DNA from: Hyphomicrobiales bacterium
GTDB lineage: Bacteria > Pseudomonadota > Alphaproteobacteria > Rhizobiales > Beijerinckiaceae
Direction: 5' to 3'
Assembly: GCA_947455995.1 (NCBI GenBank)
Contig: CANGQA010000011.1
Coordinates: forward strand, 1 to 44,990
DNA: 44,990 nt
In this document: piece by piece, positions 9,224 to 33,106 of the stretch
How the letters are laid out: the number at the start of each line of letters is the position of its first letter
Position numbering within the stretch: the stretch's first letter is position 1
The notes under the pieces: model-generated
What the model saw: the letters and a program-made list of their open reading frames with translations, nothing else
What the model was told of the DNA's origin: nothing
Databases searched by the model: none
Program-made: the position numbers and the translations under genes

Positions 9224-10954
9224 TCATCCGATGATCGGCAGCAAGACATAATTATCATGCTGTGGATCGATATGGATCGTGGTGGTTCCGCCAAAAATCG
9301 ATAGCGGACGATCTCTGGGATCATCATGCAAGAATGGACCGCAGCCAAGCAACTCATTCTTGAAGTTTGACAGCTTTCTGCCAGTCGATTCCTGCCAGAT
9401 ATAATCACGGCCGCGAATACTCAATGCAACACGATGACCGGCAGGCACGACAATACCACTGGGCCAGAATTCAACTTCGACGTCGACAGGCGCGCCCGGC
9501 ACCAATGGCTGTTTTTCATCATGGGTATGATAGGGCCGGTAAGGCTGGGTCAAAGCAGGATCGAGTTTGCGATGGGATGCGCGCAGCCAACCCTGAAAAA
9601 TCGGGGTATGCGGGTCAATCGCACCCGGGAAAGTCACTTCACGCATATCGGGCGTGAACACCCGAACCACGAGGAACAGATCGGCATCTTCTGTGCTCGA
9701 TGAAATCGTCAGCTTGGCGGCGACCGGACCGGTGATTTCTGTCTCCTTGTCCAAAGGCTCGGACAAGAAGGTCAGGCCATCGCCCATCGCGTCAAAGGAT
9801 ACCGCCTTATGATCTTTGGGTGGCTCGAGCGATAAGGTCTGGCGATGCGGATCAAGATGGAATTTGGTCCATTGCGTCCGGGCCAGCGGCCATTCATGCT
9901 CGTCACGTTCAACAAAGCGATCGGTATGGCGGACATTCAGCTTCACACGCGGCTGCTGGTCCCATCCATTTTTTGCACCTTTGAGGAAATGGTCAAAAAA
10001 GCGTAATTGCAGATCGCGTCCATAGTCGGTGTAGAAATGGGTCCAATGTTCCAGACCATGAATTTCCAGCCACTTGTCCTTTGAGGCTGCCCTCACAAAT
10101 CCTTCGCAATTGCCGCGTGGATGCAGGCCCTGACCACCCCAGTTTGAAGCTGACAAAAATGGGACTTCGACATTTTCCCAAACCGGCGAACGGTCTTTAT
10201 GCCACTGGTCATCAAGCGGATGCGCCAGAATTTCATCGCCGAAACTCAGCAGATTTTTGGCCAATTCGTCATCGCTTAAACTCTCGTCACCACAGACCAG
10301 CATGCCGTTGAGTTTCGATGTCGGCCCGCGTACGCCGCGACCATATTGGACGGTCTTGACCTGCATGTCGTACCAATTGGCAAAGAAGGTACACATGATA
10401 CCGCCGTGATAGGCACCGTCTCGGTAGAAATCGGCAAAGCCCTCCCAGATGCACATCGCGGTCAGATGCGGCGGCTTGAGCGAGGCAACATGCCACTGGT
10501 TGCTGCCGTAATAGGAAATGCCATTCAGTCCGACTTTGCCGCTCGACCAAGGCTGGACACCTGCCCATTCAATGCAGTTGTAATAATCTTTGGTTTCGCG
10601 CGGTGAATAATGATCGATAAAACCGGGGGATCGACCCGCACCGCGTGAATCGACGCGGATGCAGATATAATCATGCGGCACCCATTTTTCCGGATCGACC
10701 ACTTCCCAATTCTGGTATTTATTGCTCGACCCATAGGGCACATCGGGATGGGCCGCGATCATTTCTGCCCAGGCGCTCGGATAGCCATCCTGAAAGGCCA
10801 GCCCTTTGGCATAGGGACCATAGGTCAGCAGAACCGGATATTGACCTGCCTTGATCGGGCGGAATATATCGGCTTTCAGCACAATGCCATCATCCATCGG
10901 GATTTCGACATCCCAATCAATCGCCATGCCGTCCTGAATTACTGTCTTGGCCAT
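9224..10954 (-). CDS. CocE/NonD-family (peptidase S15-like) hydrolase, copy 1
   Basis: This 576-residue protein joins an N-terminal alpha/beta hydrolase domain to a C-terminal jelly-roll domain of the X-Pro dipeptidyl-peptidase type, as in cocaine esterase. The nucleophile elbow is GISYYGSNQW near residue 145, after the RVDSRGAGRSPG motif that usually forms the oxyanion region. The expected GWYDG segment, which supplies the acid residue in CocE, reads SNWGGQGLHPRGN here, so the canonical aspartate is not obvious. The general-base histidine is probably in GLEHWTHF. No signal peptide is seen, so the enzyme is cytoplasmic. It is a close paralogue of the gene at 12869-14608. It heads an operon with the binding protein downstream. 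Substrates in this family are esters or amides and cannot be predicted here. Confidence 0.88.
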   Translation of the reverse strand: MAKTVIQDGMAIDWDVEIPMDDGIVLKADIFRPIKAGQYPVLLTYGPYAKGLAFQDGYPSAWAEMIAAHPDVPYGSSNKYQNWEVVDPEKWVPHDYICIRVDSRGAGRSPGFIDHYSPRETKDYYNCIEWAGVQPWSSGKVGLNGISYYGSNQWHVASLKPPHLTAMCIWEGFADFYRDGAYHGGIMCTFFANWYDMQVKTVQYGRGVRGPTSKLNGMLVCGDESLSDDELAKNLLSFGDEILAHPLDDQWHKDRSPVWENVEVPFLSASNWGGQGLHPRGNCEGFVRAASKDKWLEIHGLEHWTHFYTDYGRDLQLRFFDHFLKGAKNGWDQQPRVKLNVRHTDRFVERDEHEWPLARTQWTKFHLDPHRQTLSLEPPKDHKAVSFDAMGDGLTFLSEPLDKETEITGPVAAKLTISSSTEDADLFLVVRVFTPDMREVTFPGAIDPHTPIFQGWLRASHRKLDPALTQPYRPYHTHDEKQPLVPGAPVDVEVEFWPSGIVVPAGHRVALSIRGRDYIWQESTGRKLSNFKNELLGCGPFLHDDPRDRPLSIFGGTTTIHIDPQHDNYVLLPIIG

Positions 10955-12868: not shown

Positions 12869-14608
12869 TCAGGCTTTCGGGATCACCGGCAGCATGATCC
12901 AGTTGTCGTGACCGGGCCCGATGTGCAGCGTGGTAGTCCCGCCATAGCGCGACATCGGCCGGTCACGCGGATCATCATGCAGGAAAGGTCCACAGCCACG
13001 GAACTCGTTTTTCATATTTGACAAGCGACCACCGCTGCCGCCGGTATAGACATAATCCTGTCCACGAACGCTCACGGCAATCCGGTAGCCTTTTGGCAGC
13101 ACCAGTGAGGTAGGCCACACTTCGATATCCACCGTATAGACCTTGCCCGGTTCGATCAGCTGCTTCTCGTCATGGCTGTGATAGGGCCGATAGGGCAGGC
13201 TCAAAGCCGGATCAAGCTTGCGGTGCGACACACGCAGCCAGCCCTGACCGATTGGTGTATGCGGATCAAGCGCCCCCTGGAATACGATCTCTTTCATATC
13301 GGGTGCGAAAGCGCGGACCACCACAAACAAATCGGCGTCATCGGTCGAGGAGGAGACGCTGAGCCGCATCGCCATCGGGCCCGTGATTTCGGTTTCATGC
13401 TTCAAAGGCTCTGTCACAAAGGTCAGCCCATCGCTGAAAGCCTTGAAGGAGACATGCGCTTTCTCGGTTTCAGCTGCCGTCGACAAGCTGCCGCCATCGG
13501 CATGCAGATTAAAATTCGTCCATTGCGTGCGCGGCAGAGGCCATGCCTCCTCGATGCGCTCGATGAACTTCTCGCCCGGATGGCGCACCTGCAGCCGTAC
13601 CTTCGGCTCGTTCTGCCATTCGGTCATATCGCCTTTGAGGAAGCGCGCGAAAAACCGCTTCTGCAAGGCAAGGCCGTAATCGGTGTAATAATGGGTCCAA
13701 TGTTCGATACCATGCACTTCCAACCATTTGTGCTCGGAAGCCGAGCGCAGATAGCCCTCAAAATTACCGCGCGGATGCAGGCCCTGCCCACCCCAGTTGG
13801 CCGCCGACAGCAATGGCACGGTGATTTTCGAGAAATCCGGGGTGCGACTGGTATAGAATTCATCTTCCAGCTCGTGCTGGATCACATCGGTATAGATATC
13901 ACGGCGGTTCGAGCCCAATTCCTCGTCGGTCAACGAGTCCGGACCCGATACCCAATCGCCATTCATGCGCGAGCGGTGACCGCGCTTGCCAAGCCCGTTC
14001 TGCACTGTTTTGACCTGCATATCATACCAGTTCTGCAAGAAGGTGCAGTGGATGCCGCCGTGACGGATCATGTCGCGGTAAAAATCCGCGCACCCTTCCC
14101 AGATGCACATGGCCGCCAGACCGCGTGGCTGCATCGCCGCCACCTGCCACTGGTTGATCGCATAATAGGAAATGCCGCTCAGGCCCACTTTGCCGTTCGA
14201 CCACGCCTGATCGGCGCACCATTCCACACAGGTGGCAAAATCCTGGGTTTCACGGGCCGACCAATGATCGACATAGCCCGGTGAACGGCCACAGCCGCGG
14301 CTGTCGACGCGCACGCAGACATAACCATCGGGAACCCATTTTTCGGGGTCGCAAACTTCCCAGCTCTGGAAGCGGTTGGACGAACCGGCAGGCACATCGG
14401 GATGCTGGCTGACCATGCGGTCCCATGCGGTTTTATAACCATCCTCGAAATGCAGCAGCTTGCCGTAAGGCCCATGCGCCAGCAGCACCGGATAACGCCC
14501 CTCTTTCAGGGGACGAAACACATCGGCGCGCAACACCAAGCCGTCATCCATGGTAATGGCGACATCCCAATCAATCCGCATGCCTTCTTGAACCGAGTGG
14601 CGTTCCAT
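12869..14608 (-). CDS. CocE/NonD-family (peptidase S15-like) hydrolase, copy 2
   Basis: The 579-residue protein has the same layout as the gene at 9224-10954 and aligns with it along its whole length. Shared blocks include RVDSRGCGRSPGYVDH, the nucleophile elbow GISYYAINQW (the residue after the tyrosines is Ala instead of Gly), NWGGQGLHPRGNFEGY, GIEHWTHYYTDYG and the C-terminal GCGPFLHDDPRDRP. As in copy 1, the usual WYD acid segment is replaced by NWGGQ. No signal peptide is seen. The two copies differ enough that they are old paralogues rather than a fresh duplication, and they may take different substrates. A GGGAGAG ribosome site precedes the ATG. The aldo/keto reductase gene follows on the same strand. 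Confidence 0.88.
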   Translation of the reverse strand: MERHSVQEGMRIDWDVAITMDDGLVLRADVFRPLKEGRYPVLLAHGPYGKLLHFEDGYKTAWDRMVSQHPDVPAGSSNRFQSWEVCDPEKWVPDGYVCVRVDSRGCGRSPGYVDHWSARETQDFATCVEWCADQAWSNGKVGLSGISYYAINQWQVAAMQPRGLAAMCIWEGCADFYRDMIRHGGIHCTFLQNWYDMQVKTVQNGLGKRGHRSRMNGDWVSGPDSLTDEELGSNRRDIYTDVIQHELEDEFYTSRTPDFSKITVPLLSAANWGGQGLHPRGNFEGYLRSASEHKWLEVHGIEHWTHYYTDYGLALQKRFFARFLKGDMTEWQNEPKVRLQVRHPGEKFIERIEEAWPLPRTQWTNFNLHADGGSLSTAAETEKAHVSFKAFSDGLTFVTEPLKHETEITGPMAMRLSVSSSTDDADLFVVVRAFAPDMKEIVFQGALDPHTPIGQGWLRVSHRKLDPALSLPYRPYHSHDEKQLIEPGKVYTVDIEVWPTSLVLPKGYRIAVSVRGQDYVYTGGSGGRLSNMKNEFRGCGPFLHDDPRDRPMSRYGGTTTLHIGPGHDNWIMLPVIPKA

Positions 14609-26828: not shown

Positions 26829-27709
26829 GCGAGTTTATCCTTCCCCACGACATCACCCGGGTCACATCGCTGAAAACCGTCGGAGAGATGTTGCGCGCCA
26901 ATGGGATCGAAACCGCCCAACGCGATGCGCGTCTGCTGATGCTGGCTGCTGCAGGCATTGTCCATGCCGATCTGCTGCGCGAACCGCGCCTGCCCTTGGG
27001 AGAGGAAGTCGCCGAACGGTTGAGCAACTGGATCAGACAACGGCTCGAACGGGTGCCGGTCGCCCGTATTCTGGGTGAATGGGAGTTCTGGAGCCTGCCT
27101 TTCACCTTGGCACCCGAAACTCTGGTGCCCCGTCCCGATAGCGAAACGGTGGTCGCAGCAGCCCTGATCAATCTGGGTGACCGCCGACACCAGAGCGACG
27201 GCTTGCGCGTGCTGGACCTGGGGACAGGAACAGGTTGCCTTCTGGTCGCGTTGCTTCATGAATTGCCCGGTGCCACCGGGCTCGGTGTCGACCTATCAGA
27301 TGAGGCCCTGGCGATTGCGGCCATCAATGCCCGTCGCAACCATATCGGGGAGCGCGCACAATTCCAGCGGTCGGATTGGCACCACCATATCGAGGGATCG
27401 TTTGATCTGATTGTCTCCAACCCGCCTTATATCGCAGATCCGATCATCGATACGCTGGAGCCTGAAGTGCGATTCCACGATCCGCGCCTTGCACTCTCCG
27501 GGGGCCGCGACGGCTTGGATGCCTATCGCATTCTGATGCAAGGACTACCCAAACTGCTGGCCCCCAATGGCGTGGCTGTCCTGGAAATTGGGTCGGACCA
27601 ATCCGAAACCGTTGCCAAACTGGCGCGTGAAAGCGGCTTCTCGATCGATGGGCCCTATGCCGATTTCGGCGCACGCCCGCGCGCTTATGCACTTAGGATG
27701 AAACATTGA
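26825..27709 (+). CDS. prmC: Release factor glutamine methyltransferase
   Basis: The 294-residue enzyme methylates the glutamine of the GGQ motif in release factors. It has the family N-terminal helical domain, [14 protein letters not shown] near residue 80, SAM motif [12 protein letters not shown] near residue 130 and the NPPY catalytic motif ([10 protein letters not shown] near residue 198). The [16 protein letters not shown] and C-terminal GARPRAYAL segments are typical. It overlaps prfA, its substrate gene, by four bases. Confidence 0.97.
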
Positions 27710-28184
27710 CGATTATTTTCGGATTTTTGGCAGTATATAAATATTTTCCTTTGTCATCGCGCTCATCTTAGGTCATACTGTGCTTCGTCGGAGTCCATGG
27801 ATCTTTGGTGCGCATTGAGCCATCAAGTCCTGTGTCGTATCCTCGTTCACCATATAACATGCTATGTTGAGCAAGATACGGTCCCGATTTGCGCACTTTG
27901 ATCCTTGAAGGGGTCGGATGCGCTGACAAACGAACAAAGTTGAATTTCTCTGTTTTCCGGCGTGGAAAGCCCCTTGGTGTTTTGGGTTTCTTCCGGTTGA
28001 AAAACATCAAACGGCGAGCGTTCATTTCGCAGCCTCATCATTCAAGGTAATGATGGCAGGCAACATTGCTAAGGGCACCACATTGGCGACAGACTTTGCG
28101 TCGATTACCGGATTGATCCAGTCAGGCATTCAAACTGCCGGGATTGCCATCATCCATTCATATCATAGCATTTAAGGACCGTTG
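27710..28184 (+). other. Long leader between prmC and the DUF4167 gene
   Basis: This 475-base gap is unexpectedly long for a place where related genomes usually keep genes close. It contains AT-rich sequence at 27715-27765 that could hold a promoter, a possible 41-codon ORF at 28050-28175 (listed separately), and an 85-codon minus-strand frame at 27768-28025 that I do not accept. I saw no tRNA or known riboswitch. Confidence 0.4.
28050..28175 (+). CDS. Possible 41-codon upstream ORF before the DUF4167 gene
   Basis: An ATG-ATG start at 28050 has AAGG four bases upstream, and the frame runs 41 codons to a TAA at 28173. It encodes a mildly hydrophobic peptide (IAKGTTLATDFASITG near the N-terminus, then a Gly/Ile-rich end). 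The stop TAA is part of the TAAGGA that serves as ribosome site for the next gene, ten bases before its ATG. That placement would allow translational coupling, but a chance ORF is quite possible. No homologue is known to me. Confidence 0.3.
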   Translation: MMAGNIAKGTTLATDFASITGLIQSGIQTAGIAIIHSYHSI

Positions 28185-29174
28185 ATGAGACCTAATCATC
28201 AGAACAAGCGCATGCGTGGCCGTAGCCGTGGTGGAAGTGGTGGCAATGGAGGCGGAGGGGGCAAGGGACCAAATCCGTTAACCCGCAGCTACGAATCCAA
28301 CGGGCCAGATGTTAAAATCCGTGGAACTGCCCAGCATATTGCTGAAAAATACTTGCAAATGGGCCGCGATGCTCAGGCCACTGGCGATTACGTGACGGCT
28401 GAAAACTATTTCCAGCACGGCGAACATTACCTGCGTATCATTGCGACAGCGCATGAAGCCATGCGTCTGGCCAATCCGCAATTCAGACCCTATGAGCCAC
28501 AAGATGGCGAGGACGGGGACGAGGACGAGGAGGGAGCTCCCTTCGCACCGGGCACCCCTCAACCGGAAGTCCGCTACAACAATCCACCTCAGGCCGACTC
28601 CGAGCAGCCCGATTTCCAGCCGCAGCCCCGCGAATATCGCGAACGGCCACAGCAGGAACGGAGCCCTCGTTTCGAGCAGCGTCACGACCGCCGCGATGAC
28701 CGTCACGATGACCGTCGCCGCGAACATACCCAGCGGGATAGCCAGCCGCGTGACAGCCAACCTCGCGATCACCGTAGCGATGCAGCGCATGATCAGAGCG
28801 CTCCCAGAGAATATACGCCGCGGGAGTATACACCCCGCGAACAGACACCCAGGGAGTCGTCGCCGCGCGACCATCAATCCCGCGAAAGCGGACGCTTTGA
28901 CCGCCGCGAACGGTTCGAGCAGCGGCGCGGACCTTCGGCTGAACGCAGTCCAGCATCTGTCGAACCAGAAGTGCAGACCGGTCTTCCGGCCTTCATTACC
29001 GCGCCTGTGCGTCCTCTCTCCGAAGAACAGCCGGTAATCCCGCCCCAGTCAACGTCGCCTCTCTTCGAAACGGTCGCAGGCACAACAGAATTTCCGGTCA
29101 ATGAACGTCGCGGACGCGGGCGGCCACGCAAAGTGATCGAGGCAGCACCGGTGAAAGACCAAGCAGGCGAATAA
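28185..29174 (+). CDS. DUF4167 domain protein with long Arg/Asp-rich repetitive tail
   Basis: The 329-residue protein begins with a basic Arg/Gly-rich leader (MRPNHQNKRMRGRSRGG, then a poly-Gly run) followed by the conserved DUF4167 domain at about residues 30-105 (IRGTAQHIAEKYLQMGRDA, then AENYFQHGEHYLRI). After an acidic EDGDEDEEG patch, the rest is low-complexity: RDDRHDDRR-type runs and a short tandem repeat EYTPRE/EQTPRE. It ends with an AT-hook-like RRGRGRPRK at about 307-316. Family function is not established; nucleic-acid binding is a reasonable guess from the basic and RG-rich parts. I use the ATG at 28185 with TAAGGA upstream rather than the TTG at 28182. The neighbours prfA-prmC and clpB match the usual location of this gene. 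Confidence 0.88.
   Translation: MRPNHQNKRMRGRSRGGSGGNGGGGGKGPNPLTRSYESNGPDVKIRGTAQHIAEKYLQMGRDAQATGDYVTAENYFQHGEHYLRIIATAHEAMRLANPQFRPYEPQDGEDGDEDEEGAPFAPGTPQPEVRYNNPPQADSEQPDFQPQPREYRERPQQERSPRFEQRHDRRDDRHDDRRREHTQRDSQPRDSQPRDHRSDAAHDQSAPREYTPREYTPREQTPRESSPRDHQSRESGRFDRRERFEQRRGPSAERSPASVEPEVQTGLPAFITAPVRPLSEEQPVIPPQSTSPLFETVAGTTEFPVNERRGRGRPRKVIEAAPVKDQAGE
28680..28860 (+). repeat. Short imperfect tandem repeats within the DUF4167 gene
   Basis: Two blocks are visible. GATGACCGTC recurs near 28695-28715, encoding alternating Arg/Asp/His, and an imperfect 12-base unit at about 28806-28858 encodes repeated YTPRE or QTPRE. They expand the disordered tail of the protein. Confidence 0.6.
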
Positions 29175-29201
29175 GCGGCTTTTTTCATGACAATCACAAT
29201 C

Positions 29202-29227
29202 AGGAGGGCTTTGGCCCTCCTTTTTTT
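29202..29227 (+). terminator. Terminator after the DUF4167 gene
   Basis: An 8-base-pair stem AGGAGGGC/GCCCTCCT (29202-29209 with 29214-29221) with a four-base loop runs into seven T residues. It separates the DUF4167 gene from the lysis cassette, so the cassette needs its own promoter or read-through. Confidence 0.88.
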
Positions 29228-29260
29228 GTGCCCATTTCCCAGAAAAAAAACGGAGAAAGA

Positions 29261-29791
29261 ATGATGGATATGGCTAAATTGATGTCCAGCATCGCCACGG
29301 TTGCTCCAACAGTGGCATTGGCTTTGGGAGGACCAGTGGCAGGACTGGCCGTCACCGCATTGTCGCAAGCTTTAACAGACAAGCAGGACACCACGACGGA
29401 CCAATTGGCCCTATTGCTGGCCAAACCGAATGCCGACCAGATCACCAAGCTCAAAGAGGCCGAACTGGCTTTCACGCAGAAAATGAAGGAACTGGACATC
29501 AATATTGTCCAGATCGCCGCCAATGACATGGCCAGCGCGCGCCAGCGCGAAATAACCACAGGCGATCATCTCACCCCGCGTGTTTTGGCGGTACTGGTGT
29601 CTGTCGGCTTTTTCGGAATCCTGAGCTGGATGCTCAACAACGCAATTCCCGCCTCGGGCAAGGAGGCCCTGCTTGTGATGCTCGGCGCCCTTGGAACCGG
29701 GTGGACAGCTGTTTTGTCATATTATTTCGGCTCATCCGCCGGATCTTTCGACAAAAACGCCGTGTTGCAGCAGATCATCAAAACCAAATAA
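29261..29791 (+). CDS. Three-helix holin of gene-transfer-agent type
   Basis: This 176-residue membrane protein matches the layout of the GTA holin (3TM) family. A hydrophobic N-terminal segment (about residues 10-36) is followed by a long polar, partly helical stretch (40-105, KLKEAELAFTQKMKELD), then two clear membrane helices at about 107-125 and 134-156. Holins make pores in the inner membrane so that a cytoplasmic endolysin reaches the cell wall. The ATG at 29261 is preceded by CGGAGAAAGA; the open frame begins at 29228 but lacks a ribosome site there. A gene for a cell-wall peptidase follows 19 bases later, the classic holin-endolysin order. No phage structural genes are near. Family assignment is by pattern, not by search. 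Confidence 0.8.
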   Translation: MMDMAKLMSSIATVAPTVALALGGPVAGLAVTALSQALTDKQDTTTDQLALLLAKPNADQITKLKEAELAFTQKMKELDINIVQIAANDMASARQREITTGDHLTPRVLAVLVSVGFFGILSWMLNNAIPASGKEALLVMLGALGTGWTAVLSYYFGSSAGSFDKNAVLQQIIKTK

Positions 29792-29810
29792 GCGACAGGG
29801 AGATCCCGGG

Positions 29811-30335
29811 ATGGATGATCGATTTTCAACCCAAGAGCCTGTCTGGTTGCAACAAGCCCGCCATTTGCTCGGCACACAAGAAAGCCCCGGCGCCACCAAT
29901 AACGCGACCATCCTTGATTGGGCCAAGCAGGAGGGCGGTTGGGTCGAACGGTTCTACACCGCCGATTCCATCCCATGGTGCGGGCTATTTGTCAGCCACT
30001 GCCTGTTGAATGCCGGGATAGACGGCCCTAAAAATCCGCTCTCCGCGCTGGCTTGGGCCGATTGGGGAGAGGACGTGGCTTTGTCGGACCGCGAGGCAGG
30101 GTGCGTGCTGGTGTTTACCCGCCAAGGCGGAGGACATGTCGGCTTTTATGTCGGTGAGGATGCTGATGGATCGGCACTGCATGTGCTGGGCGGCAACCAG
30201 TCCGATGCCGTCACCATCACCCGCATCAGCACCGACCGTCTGCATGCAGTCCGCTGGCCCACAGGCCTTGCGCGCTCCAAAACGGGCCTTTTGACTAGAA
30301 ACCTGACGGCCAGCCTATCAGGCAACGAGGCCTAA
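29811..30335 (+). CDS. TIGR02594-type peptidoglycan endopeptidase (endolysin-like)
   Basis: The 174-residue protein resembles the TIGR02594 family of small Cys/His hydrolases related to NlpC/P60 and CHAP domains. The likely nucleophile is Cys57 in IPWCGLFVSHCL, the likely base is His109 in GGGHVGFYVGED, and a polar residue in the LGGNQSD segment near 128-132 may complete the site. The N-terminal WLQQARHLLGTQESPG pattern is typical of such domains. It has no signal peptide, so it would need the holin encoded just upstream to reach peptidoglycan. I use the ATG at 29811 (AGGGAG upstream) because the frame's earlier start overlaps the holin gene. In phages and GTAs such pairs carry out cell lysis; here it sits alone before clpB. 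Confidence 0.83.
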   Translation: MDDRFSTQEPVWLQQARHLLGTQESPGATNNATILDWAKQEGGWVERFYTADSIPWCGLFVSHCLLNAGIDGPKNPLSALAWADWGEDVALSDREAGCVLVFTRQGGGHVGFYVGEDADGSALHVLGGNQSDAVTITRISTDRLHAVRWPTGLARSKTGLLTRNLTASLSGNEA

Positions 30336-30419
30336 ACAGGCAAAAGATTTCGCTTTTCACCTCTTTTGTTCCTGAAAACCAATTCCTATCTAGATTAAGA
30401 GAGGAGCTGCCACATCGGG

Positions 30420-30443
30420 GCCCTCCAATTCAAGGGGCTTTTT
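30420..30443 (+). terminator. Weak terminator-like hairpin before clpB
   Basis: GCCCT at 30420-30424 can pair with AGGGGC at 30433-30438 (one bulged G), followed by five T residues. It lies about 85 bases after the endopeptidase stop and could limit read-through into clpB, or be a coincidence. Confidence 0.35.
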
Positions 30444-30484
30444 CCGTGTCTTATGAGCGGATTAGGCGGCCATAGGAGATAAAC

Positions 30485-33106
30485 ATGAATTTCGAGAAAT
30501 ATACTGACCGCGCCAAAGGGTTCATCCAAGCCGCGCAGACCATTGCGATGCGCGAAGGCCATCCGCAACTGACCCCGGAACATGTCCTCAAAGCCCTGCT
30601 GGATGACAACGAGGGTATGGCTGCAGGCCTGATCCGCAATGCTGGCGGGGATCCGAAAGCGGCTCTGGCCCATACCGATGCACTGATTGCCAAAATGCCT
30701 CGGGTCAGTGGGTCCGCCTCGGCCCAATCACAACCGACCCGTGATCTGATCCGCCTGTTCGGCAGCGCAGAGCAGTTGGCACAAGAAGCCAGTGACCATT
30801 TCGTCACGGCCGAACGGCTGCTTCTGGCCATCACAATAGACACCGGAATGGAAGCCGGACAGGCATTGGCCAAGGCAGGTGTCACCCGCAAAGGACTTGA
30901 TCAGGCAATCAGCGATTTACGCAAGGGCCGCACAGCCGATAGCGCGAACGCGGAAGGCGCCTATGATGCCTTGAAAAAATATGCACGGGATCTGACCCAG
31001 GCCGCGCGGGACGGCAAGCTCGATCCGGTGATTGGCCGCGATGAGGAAATCCGCCGTGCTATTCAGGTTCTCTCCCGCCGCACCAAGAACAATCCGGTCC
31101 TGATCGGTGAGCCAGGCGTCGGCAAGACCGCTATTGCTGAAGGGCTGGCTCTGCGGATCGTCAATGGCGATGTGCCCGAAAGTCTCAAGAACAAGCAACT
31201 CCTGTCGCTCGATATGGGCTCGCTGATTGCCGGAGCCAAATATCGGGGTGAATTCGAAGAACGACTGAAAGCCGTCCTATCGGAAGTCACAGCTGCCGCA
31301 GGCGAGATTATCCTGTTCATTGATGAGATGCACACTCTGGTTGGCGCAGGCAAAGGCGAAGGTGCGATGGATGCCTCCAACCTGCTCAAGCCTGCTCTGG
31401 CGCGCGGAGAATTGCACTGCATTGGCGCCACCACGCTGGATGAATACCGTAAACACGTTGAAAAGGACGCCGCACTTGCCCGCCGGTTCCAGCCGGTCTT
31501 TGTGTCGGAACCAACCGTGGAAGACACGATCTCGATTTTGCGAGGGCTCAAGGAGAAATACGAACTCCACCACGGAGTGCGGATCACTGACAGCGCCATT
31601 GTCGCTGCCGCGACTTTGTCAAACCGCTATATTACCGACCGCTTTCTGCCCGATAAAGCGATCGACCTGATTGACGAGGCCTCATCGCGCCTCAGGATGC
31701 AGGTCGACTCCAAGCCCGAAGAGCTCGACGAGCTTGACCGCCGCATCATGCAGTTAAGGATCGAACAGGAAGCCCTGCGCAAAGAAGAGGACGCCGCCTC
31801 AAAAGACCGGCTGGCCCGCCTGGAAAAGGAATTGTCGGAACTCGAAGAACGCTCGAACCTGCTGACCGCGCGCTGGAAGGCTGAAAAAGACAAGCTCGGC
31901 AGCGTCCAGAAAATCAAGGAACAGCTTGAACAGGCCCGCAATGATCTCGCCAATGCCCAGCGCAAGGGCGAATATCAAAAGGCCGGTGAATTGGCCTATG
32001 GGCTGATCCCGGATCTGGAAAAACGATTGATTGCCATTGAAGGCGAGGAAGCCAAAGGCACCGCGCTGGTTGATGAGGCCGTGGGAGCCAACGACATTGC
32101 GCAAGTGGTGTCGCGCTGGACCGGTGTGCCGGTCGAACGGATGCTGGCGGGCGAGAAAGAAAAACTCTTGATGATGGAAGCCAAGCTCGGTGAACGGGTT
32201 GTCGGCCAGATCGAGGCCGTCCATGCGGTTGCAACCGCCGTCCGGCGGGCACGGGCGGGCCTGCAAGATCCTCATCGCCCGATCGGCTCTTTCATGTTCC
32301 TTGGTCCGACCGGCGTCGGCAAAACCGAGCTGACCAAAGCTCTGGCCGGTTTCATGTTCGATGACGAAAGCGCTTTGCTGCGGATCGACATGTCCGAATA
32401 TATGGAAAAGCATTCGGTTGCCCGCCTGATCGGCGCCCCTCCCGGCTATGTCGGCTATGAGGAAGGCGGTGCGCTGACCGAAGCTGTCAGACGGCGGCCC
32501 TATCAGGTCGTTTTGTTTGATGAAATCGAGAAAGCCCATCCCGAAGTGTTCAACATCCTGCTGCAGGTGCTCGATGATGGCCGCCTGACCGATGGTCAGG
32601 GCCGCACGGTCGATTTCCGCAACACCTTGATCATCATGACCTCGAATCTTGGCTCGGAATATCTGGTCAACCAGCCCGAGGGTGAGGACAGCGAGGCGGT
32701 GCGCGAGGATGTCATGGGCCTTGTCAAAGCCCATTTCCGGCCCGAATTCCTCAACCGTGTCGACGAAATCATCCTGTTCCATCGCCTGCAGCGCAATGAA
32801 ATGGGAGCGATTGTTGATATCCAGATGCATCGGCTGGCCAAATTGCTCGACGAACGCAAGATCGTGCTTGATCTGGCTCCCGACGCACGCGAATGGCTGG
32901 CCGAACGCGGCTATGAGCCCGCTTATGGTGCCAGACCCCTCAAACGGGTGATCCAGAAGCACCTTCAGGACACGCTGGCGGAATTGATCCTGTCGGGTGC
33001 GATCAAGGACGGCGAGCATGTGGCCGTCAGCGCCGGACCCTTGGGACTGATCATCGGCGGCCATGCCAGCGAACCCAACCGGCCTGTTAAAGCCTTGTTG
33101 AATTGA
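30485..33106 (+). CDS. clpB: ATP-dependent chaperone ClpB
   Basis: This 873-residue AAA+ disaggregase works with DnaK to recover aggregated proteins after heat shock. It begins with the repeat N-domain ([30 protein letters not shown]). The first AAA+ module has Walker [14 protein letters not shown] near residue 208 and Walker B with [13 protein letters not shown]; a middle coiled coil covers roughly 400-520 (rich in Glu, Lys and Arg). The second module has [13 protein letters not shown] near residue 608 and [14 protein letters not shown], with the arginine-finger region in [10 protein letters not shown]. Length is normal. An AGGAGATAAAC sequence precedes the ATG. No clear sigma-32 promoter was found in the short upstream region. 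A strong terminator follows. Confidence 0.98.

Follow-up and report, generated by a model that had tools for sequence, protein, structure and literature searches.

A holin-endopeptidase gene pair between the DUF4167 gene and clpB in Beijerinckiaceae, a candidate release module for a gene transfer agent coded elsewhere

The question raised by this locus is what a holin-like gene and an endopeptidase gene do between the DUF4167 gene and clpB, and whether they serve a gene transfer agent (GTA) whose structural genes lie in another part of the genome. Both genes are in the window, which is the whole stretch of DNA analysed (44,990 nucleotides, from a genome of the Beijerinckiaceae). A preliminary description of this DNA had suggested that the pair could be the release module of a GTA coded elsewhere, a domesticated lysis system or a holin-driven export route, and had asked if its expression is linked to stress through clpB.

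The gene pair and its neighbourhood

The holin-like gene and the endopeptidase gene are both on the + strand, at the place where they had been reported and with the reported gap of 19 bases between them (Table 1). The holin gene starts 33 bases after the end of the DUF4167 terminator, and the pair ends 149 bases upstream of clpB, which is on the same strand. The terminator that had been placed before the pair is real: its stem and T run are kept in the five genomes of the window's genus (g1), and a terminator is also found behind the DUF4167 gene in G012, a genome without the pair in which the DUF4167 gene, the terminator and clpB are consecutive with nothing between. The likely ribosome-binding site of the holin gene reads GGAGA in four of the five g1 genomes and GGAAA in G030. 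The orphan setting of the pair was confirmed as well. A Pfam scan of 30 of the larger open reading frames (ORFs) of the window, pair included, found no phage structural gene and no integrase, and the pair contains the only phage-like genes among them; no tRNA was found near the pair, and no repeats of at least 14 bases, which could be att-like, were found at 29000-30600. Elsewhere in the window, the minus strand shows two S15-family X-Pro dipeptidyl-peptidase-like genes near each other, at 9224-10954 and 12869-14608.

Table 1. Positions of the gene pair and of the neighbouring features in the window
Feature	Positions	Strand	Remarks
DUF4167 gene	28182-29174		Upstream neighbour of the pair
Intrinsic terminator of the DUF4167 gene	29202-29227	+	8-bp stem at 29202-29221, T run to 29227
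Likely ribosome-binding site of the holin gene, GGAGA	29252-29256	+	From sequence reading
Holin-like membrane protein gene	29261-29791	+	ATG to TAA, 176 aa, PHROG 1544 family, C-terminal GSSAGS motif
Signal-less NlpC/P60-fold (TIGR02594/CHAP-like) endopeptidase gene	29811-30335	+	ATG to TAA, 174 aa
Promoter-like element of clpB, CTTTTG ... CCTATCTA	30363-30392	+	Separate from the pair; from conservation
clpB	30485-33106		Downstream neighbour of the pair

No promoter was recognised for the pair; the scan found two predictions against 1.0 expected, and the only one on the + strand stands before the DUF4167 gene. A CtrA-type site (TTAA-N7-TTAA, with up to one mismatch) was found neither at 27600-30600 nor in the 900 bases before the GTA cluster. 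As a guess, the pair could be driven by read-through of the DUF4167 terminator, which fits the short distance between this terminator and the holin gene.

The two proteins

The first protein had been described as a three-helix holin of the kind linked to GTAs. The three helices are in agreement with the hydropathy, which shows three hydrophobic segments (residues 17-35, 108-126 and 136-154), and the AF2 model, whose confidence is modest (mean pLDDT 72.2, pTM 0.44), has long helices in its C-terminal part and shorter ones in its N-terminal part. The membership in GTA_holin_3TM (PF11351, with a curated cut-off of 24.8 bits) did not stand: this profile gives no match to the window protein at E 0.1 and none in the window genome (G000), hhalign between the alignments of the holin family and of PF11351 gave a probability of 0.4 % (with only six sequences on the PF11351 side), and only one of 36 aligned holin relatives touches the profile, at E 0.032. 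PF11351 was rejected as the family of this protein on these grounds, and the lysis context comes from other evidence. The protein matches PHROG 1544 (E 6.9e-17, residues 2-168 on positions 1-191 of a profile of 200), which carries no name or function annotation in PHROGs. The scores with PF21787, also seen in 14 of the 36 aligned sequences, and with NCBIfam NF001494 are below the cut-offs and were taken as chance.

Nine phage records were opened, of which seven are holin matches, and five of these seven show endolysins of several kinds near the holin relative. It adjoins a lysozyme in MW202557 and a GH108 protein in Rhodoferax phage P26218, M15-type peptidases are beside it in DSL-LC04, where it is annotated as 'Holin of 3TMs', and in Vibrio phage 1.243, and in MW202701 it is separated by some genes from an M15-type peptidase nearby. 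The annotation of Arash and H101 shows no endolysin near the holin relative. The neighbour ORFs of 34 de-replicated viral holin loci, 96 in number (two loci had none), include 10 matches to GH108, four to Peptidase_M15_3 and three to phage lysozyme, and a few further ones match SLT, M15_2 or glucosaminidase. Two genomes, G020 and G091, have a protein of 421-422 aa whose N-terminal part is the holin domain and whose C-terminal part is a GH108 endolysin. Because its relatives accompany endolysins of different kinds and the domain also occurs fused to an endolysin, the first protein is best read as a holin or a holin-like lysis factor, with a predicted hole-forming activity. The fused genes are located at L230:8413-9678 (G020) and L229:8458-9726 (G091), and no phage structural gene was recognised by eye around them.

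The second protein had been reported as a signal-less endopeptidase with catalytic Cys and His residues, which the analysis bears out. Its N-terminus shows no hydrophobic stretch by hydropathy, it matches TIGR02594 over the full model length (123.8 bits, against an NCBIfam cut-off of 70.55), and Trp56-Cys57-Gly58 and Gly108-His109-Val110 are invariant in the 58 aligned sequences. The hydrolase homology on which the earlier proposal depended is present. The best PDB matches of the AF2 model (pLDDT 90.7) are NlpC/P60 endopeptidases, led by MepS and the autolysin Acd24020, with CwlO at rank 24; normalised to the query length, their TM-scores are about 0.5. The Pfam models CHAP and NlpC/P60 match the protein only below their cut-offs. 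By sequence and model, the protein is an NlpC/P60-fold endopeptidase, predicted to cut peptidoglycan. The lack of a signal is as expected for a holin-dependent enzyme. One relative of the enzyme, a TIGR02594 protein that also has a peptidoglycan-binding part, occupies the endolysin slot in a canonical GTA cluster of G042, and others are downstream of GTA_TIM-type tail genes in prophage-looking loci.

The GTA cluster of the same genome and its endolysin slot

The search for GTA capsid and portal genes elsewhere in the genome, proposed in the preliminary description, found an RcGTA-type cluster. The window genome contains a GTA_TIM gene on C5, a contig other than that of the pair, and the cluster shows, in order, genes encoding terminase, portal, S78 protease, HK97-type capsid, connector, head completion, DUF2460, hub, NlpC/P60 and GTA_TIM proteins, all 10 of the 10 scanned ORFs matching the expected families. 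GTA_TIM is present in 116 of the 149 family genomes and in seven of the eight genomes with the pair; G121, which is 85 % complete, has the pair and no GTA_TIM match.

In many clusters of the family, g15 is followed by a DUF2793-like tail gene, an endolysin gene, a gene for a small exported protein and then the response regulator gene, the names of these genes coming from sequence reading. GH108 (PF05838) is found within 9 kb downstream in 43 of the 106 long-frame GTA_TIM loci (frame of at least 1000 aa). From these 106 loci 97 were examined, leaving out nine: G088:C99, G088:C56, G014:C137, G014:C89, G014:C113, two of G036, G065:C3 and G005:C7. The slot was considered in view if g15 and the response regulator were both shown, which is the case in 67 loci (within L224, L234, L269-L288 and L408-L484) and not in the other 30. 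A slot endolysin is found in 53 of the 67 clusters: 37 belong to GH108, eight to M15_4, five to GH24, and one to each of TIGR02594, Amidase_2 and GH19. In this count the GH108 genes of G022, G090:C4, G084 and G137 were placed by position, and the GH108-model matches of G014 and G119 were excluded as false, having arisen through a membrane tail. At least six kinds of slot enzyme are observed, and they differ even within a genus (M15 or TIGR02594 in g42).

The 14 clusters without a slot endolysin include the four visible in g1 and the three visible in the sister genus (g5), five of the six in g12, the one of G057 (g18) and G014:C155. The visible clusters of the pair-bearing genera thus contain a slot endolysin in none of seven cases, and this association of the pair with an empty slot rests on one evolutionary event. 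The other seven clusters (L470, L473, L474, L478 and L480 of g12, L445 of G057 and L466 of G014) have neither a recognised slot endolysin nor the pair, which shows that an empty slot alone does not require the pair. G147, which belongs to g12 and has an empty slot, contains a GH108 gene elsewhere in the genome, and G014 contains other TIGR02594 genes. Four endolysin families were searched in the eight pair-bearing genomes: GH108 (PF05838) and GH24 were found in none, M15_4 was found in one (G004), and TIGR02594 was found as one gene per genome, which is the enzyme of the pair. No GTA_TIM was found in G091, which has the fused holin-GH108 gene; in G060, a member of that genus, GTA_TIM is present and GH108 absent.

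The slot GH108 ORFs often have a hydrophobic C-terminal tail: 25 of the 36 scanned pass a simple cut for it, three of the 25 being separate small genes. Judged from these tails, the GH108 gene of the cluster appears to combine cutting of the wall with an action on the membrane, and this would explain a replacement set of two genes. The holin-like tail of many GTA endolysins reads SRTVWAN...GLD...STVFRVIATK, for example in L276:6348-7118 (G026) and L444 (G018), and is a separate small gene in G070, G122 and G141.

Origin of the pair and its possible role

The pair is found in five of five g1 genomes and in three of three g5 genomes, always between the DUF4167 gene and clpB. The holin query gives matches at E 0.001 in 15 of the 149 family genomes, of which only eight contain close relatives; with the enzyme as query, the same eight genomes give the best matches among 26 genomes matching at 1e-5. 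Of 30 DUF4167 loci, three contain the pair, and 11 of the 27 without it show clpB as well. Compared with three close species, the window has a dN/dS of 0.04-0.09 for the holin gene, 0.14-0.15 for the enzyme gene and 0.05-0.06 for prmC; five GTA genes, for which a comparison was possible in one or two of the three species, give 0.09-0.17. The pair is under purifying selection, in the range of that acting on the GTA genes. Its conservation in two genera together with the low dN/dS argues against chance ORFs.

Each protein of the pair has a single origin. The eight holins form one clade among phage holins (98/90), and the eight enzymes form one clade (98/85) in a tree that uses the full G046 row and omits four rows because of poor filling or great length (F_L209, F_L210, F_L216 and F_L218). 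The PrfA+PrmC+ClpB tree, from which G069 was left out and in which G010 and three others are under half filled, joins g1 and g5 (95/94), with G010 and G012 as nearest relatives, both of which have GH108 near the GTA. A single replacement in the ancestor of g1 and g5 is the simplest history suggested by these trees. The pair may instead have been gained earlier and then lost, given that the prmC tree alone groups g5 with G010 and G012 and not with g1, and that the g15 tree groups g1 and g5 weakly (79). To find phages in which a relative of the holin adjoins the enzyme, the C-terminal motif of the holin was sought around the enzyme in 158 loci. Seven gave a motif match, of which only L004, which is the sister-genus locus itself, contains this holin; the pairing of holin and enzyme therefore looks special to this lineage. 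No holin relatives in Rhodobacter phages were found among the 36 matching phage records.

The earlier proposal of a lysis cassette through which a distantly coded GTA is released fits a genome whose own RcGTA-type cluster is without the endolysin that most relatives carry. We consider it probable that the pair is a functional phage lysis cassette, now domesticated, which replaced the lysis gene of the GTA cluster and would now release the GTA from a distant locus. In most relatives, the GTA cluster ends with its own endolysin, usually a GH108 enzyme and often with a holin-like membrane tail. The ancestor of the window's genus and the sister genus would have lost this gene, and a phage-derived holin and NlpC/P60 endopeptidase would have become fixed between the DUF4167 terminator and clpB, although the order of loss and gain is one that we infer. 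In the few cells that make GTA, the holin would build up in the inner membrane and open holes, the endopeptidase without its own signal would pass to the periplasm and presumably cut the peptide cross-links of the wall, and the cell would lyse at the time of GTA production and set the particles free.

A domesticated pair could also lyse or permeabilise the cell independently of the GTA, for instance in phage defence, in the release of DNA or vesicles or in programmed cell death. The separate locus and the lack of a shared regulatory site in the regions searched are compatible with it, as are G121, with the pair and without a GTA_TIM match, and the fused holin-GH108 relative in G091, also without GTA_TIM. 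However, the G121 genome is incomplete, the GTA slot is without an endolysin in seven of the seven pair-bearing genomes with a visible cluster, and the GTA genes are under selection similar to that on the pair; we regard this reading as unlikely. Less probable still is a holin-driven export in which the enzyme is let out in small amounts for wall remodelling or protein export and the cell is not lysed. A signal-less enzyme behind a holin-like gene would suit such a route, and the fold is shared with the remodelling endopeptidases MepS and CwlO, but the close pair is present in only eight of the 149 family genomes and the relatives elsewhere are phage genes, many of them in lysis settings.

Two further readings have hardly any probability left. 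Both genes are of phage descent, but a prophage remnant decaying in place was rejected by their conservation (intact in eight of eight genomes), by selection (dN/dS 0.04-0.18) and by the lack of an integrase, another phage gene, a tRNA or a repeat found nearby; none of the related genomes seen has the pair within a degraded prophage. The stress-linked expression with clpB that had been raised at the outset would make the pair a co-transcribed partner of this gene, as its strand and its proximity to clpB would allow, and was dismissed as well. The promoter-like element between the enzyme gene and clpB, which may resemble a heat-shock promoter, is kept in the five g1 genomes, and its CCTATCTA part is also found in three g5 loci. 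Because this conserved element stands between them, clpB need not be driven through the pair. Moreover, the enzyme gene and clpB are about 0.9 kb apart in g5, with another gene-sized ORF between (seen in G046), and clpB follows the DUF4167 gene in relatives without the pair.

Release of the GTA by the pair can be extended, tentatively and with low confidence, to GTA release as a plug-in function. The slot behind g15 takes at least six endolysin kinds, and one lineage may have swapped the plug for a distant hybrid cassette that would stay silent until GTA production through conditional read-through of the terminator, as a second key; the dependence on read-through is suggested because the cassette is 33 bases behind a conserved terminator and no promoter was recognised.

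Among the known systems most like the pair is that of Rhodobacter capsulatus, whose gene rcc00555 presumably encodes a GH108 enzyme. Unlike rcc00555/rcc00556, the window genome has neither GH108 nor a PF11351 holin, and the enzyme here is of the NlpC/P60 type. The likeness consists in a two-gene module of endolysin and holin off the GTA cluster (PMC8601537, PMC3423380), the R. capsulatus lysis genes being apart from the structural cluster according to the consulted portions of PMC3423380, PMC8601537 and PMC9638019. The text available of PMC9638019 places CtrA half-sites at the R. capsulatus lysis genes, unlike the pair, at which no CtrA-type site was found in the interval searched. Caulobacter crescentus shows no holin-endolysin homologues and releases its GTA by LypABC, according to the parts seen of PMC9632790 and PMC13236601. 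The latter, in the same parts, describes a GTA release function that is coded off the structural cluster and lacks conservation between close relatives, which is similar to the pair; LypABC, however, are CARD-NLR-like immune proteins and not a holin and endolysin. The pair would serve the same need as the RcGTA-type endolysin slot of the family (GH108, GH24, M15, amidase, GH19 or TIGR02594), although slot endolysins are cluster genes, placed between g15 and the response regulator. A precedent for a cluster-adjacent endolysin comes from prophages of Methylobacterium nodulans, whose GTA-like clusters have relatives of rcc00555 next to them, in the portion consulted of PMC11409702.

Bursting of GTA-producing cells is known for R. 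capsulatus (holin and endolysin) and for C. crescentus (the unrelated LypABC), as given in the accessible part of PMC13236601, and the pair is a concrete candidate for the lysis module of a third lineage. The exchangeable endolysin slot behind g15 provides a rule for finding other GTA lysis genes. The loci described suggest that the lysis function can be lost and replaced while the particle genes stay, and if this is true, few components of this ancient system of DNA exchange would be swapped as readily as release. The available portions of PMC9836097 and PMC9662315 say nothing about lysis genes of the order, and no description of the pair or of an exchangeable slot was found in the titles and abstract beginnings of the open-licence papers that the literature searches gave.

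Related enzymes are also encoded by two free phages of Rhodobacter, RcSimone-Hastad and RcRudolph, in which no relative of the holin was found. Their cell wall hydrolases are TIGR02594-like, share 47.5 and 49.7 % identity with the enzyme of the pair, and are encoded 2.3 and 2.1 kb, respectively, after the GTA TIM-barrel gene.
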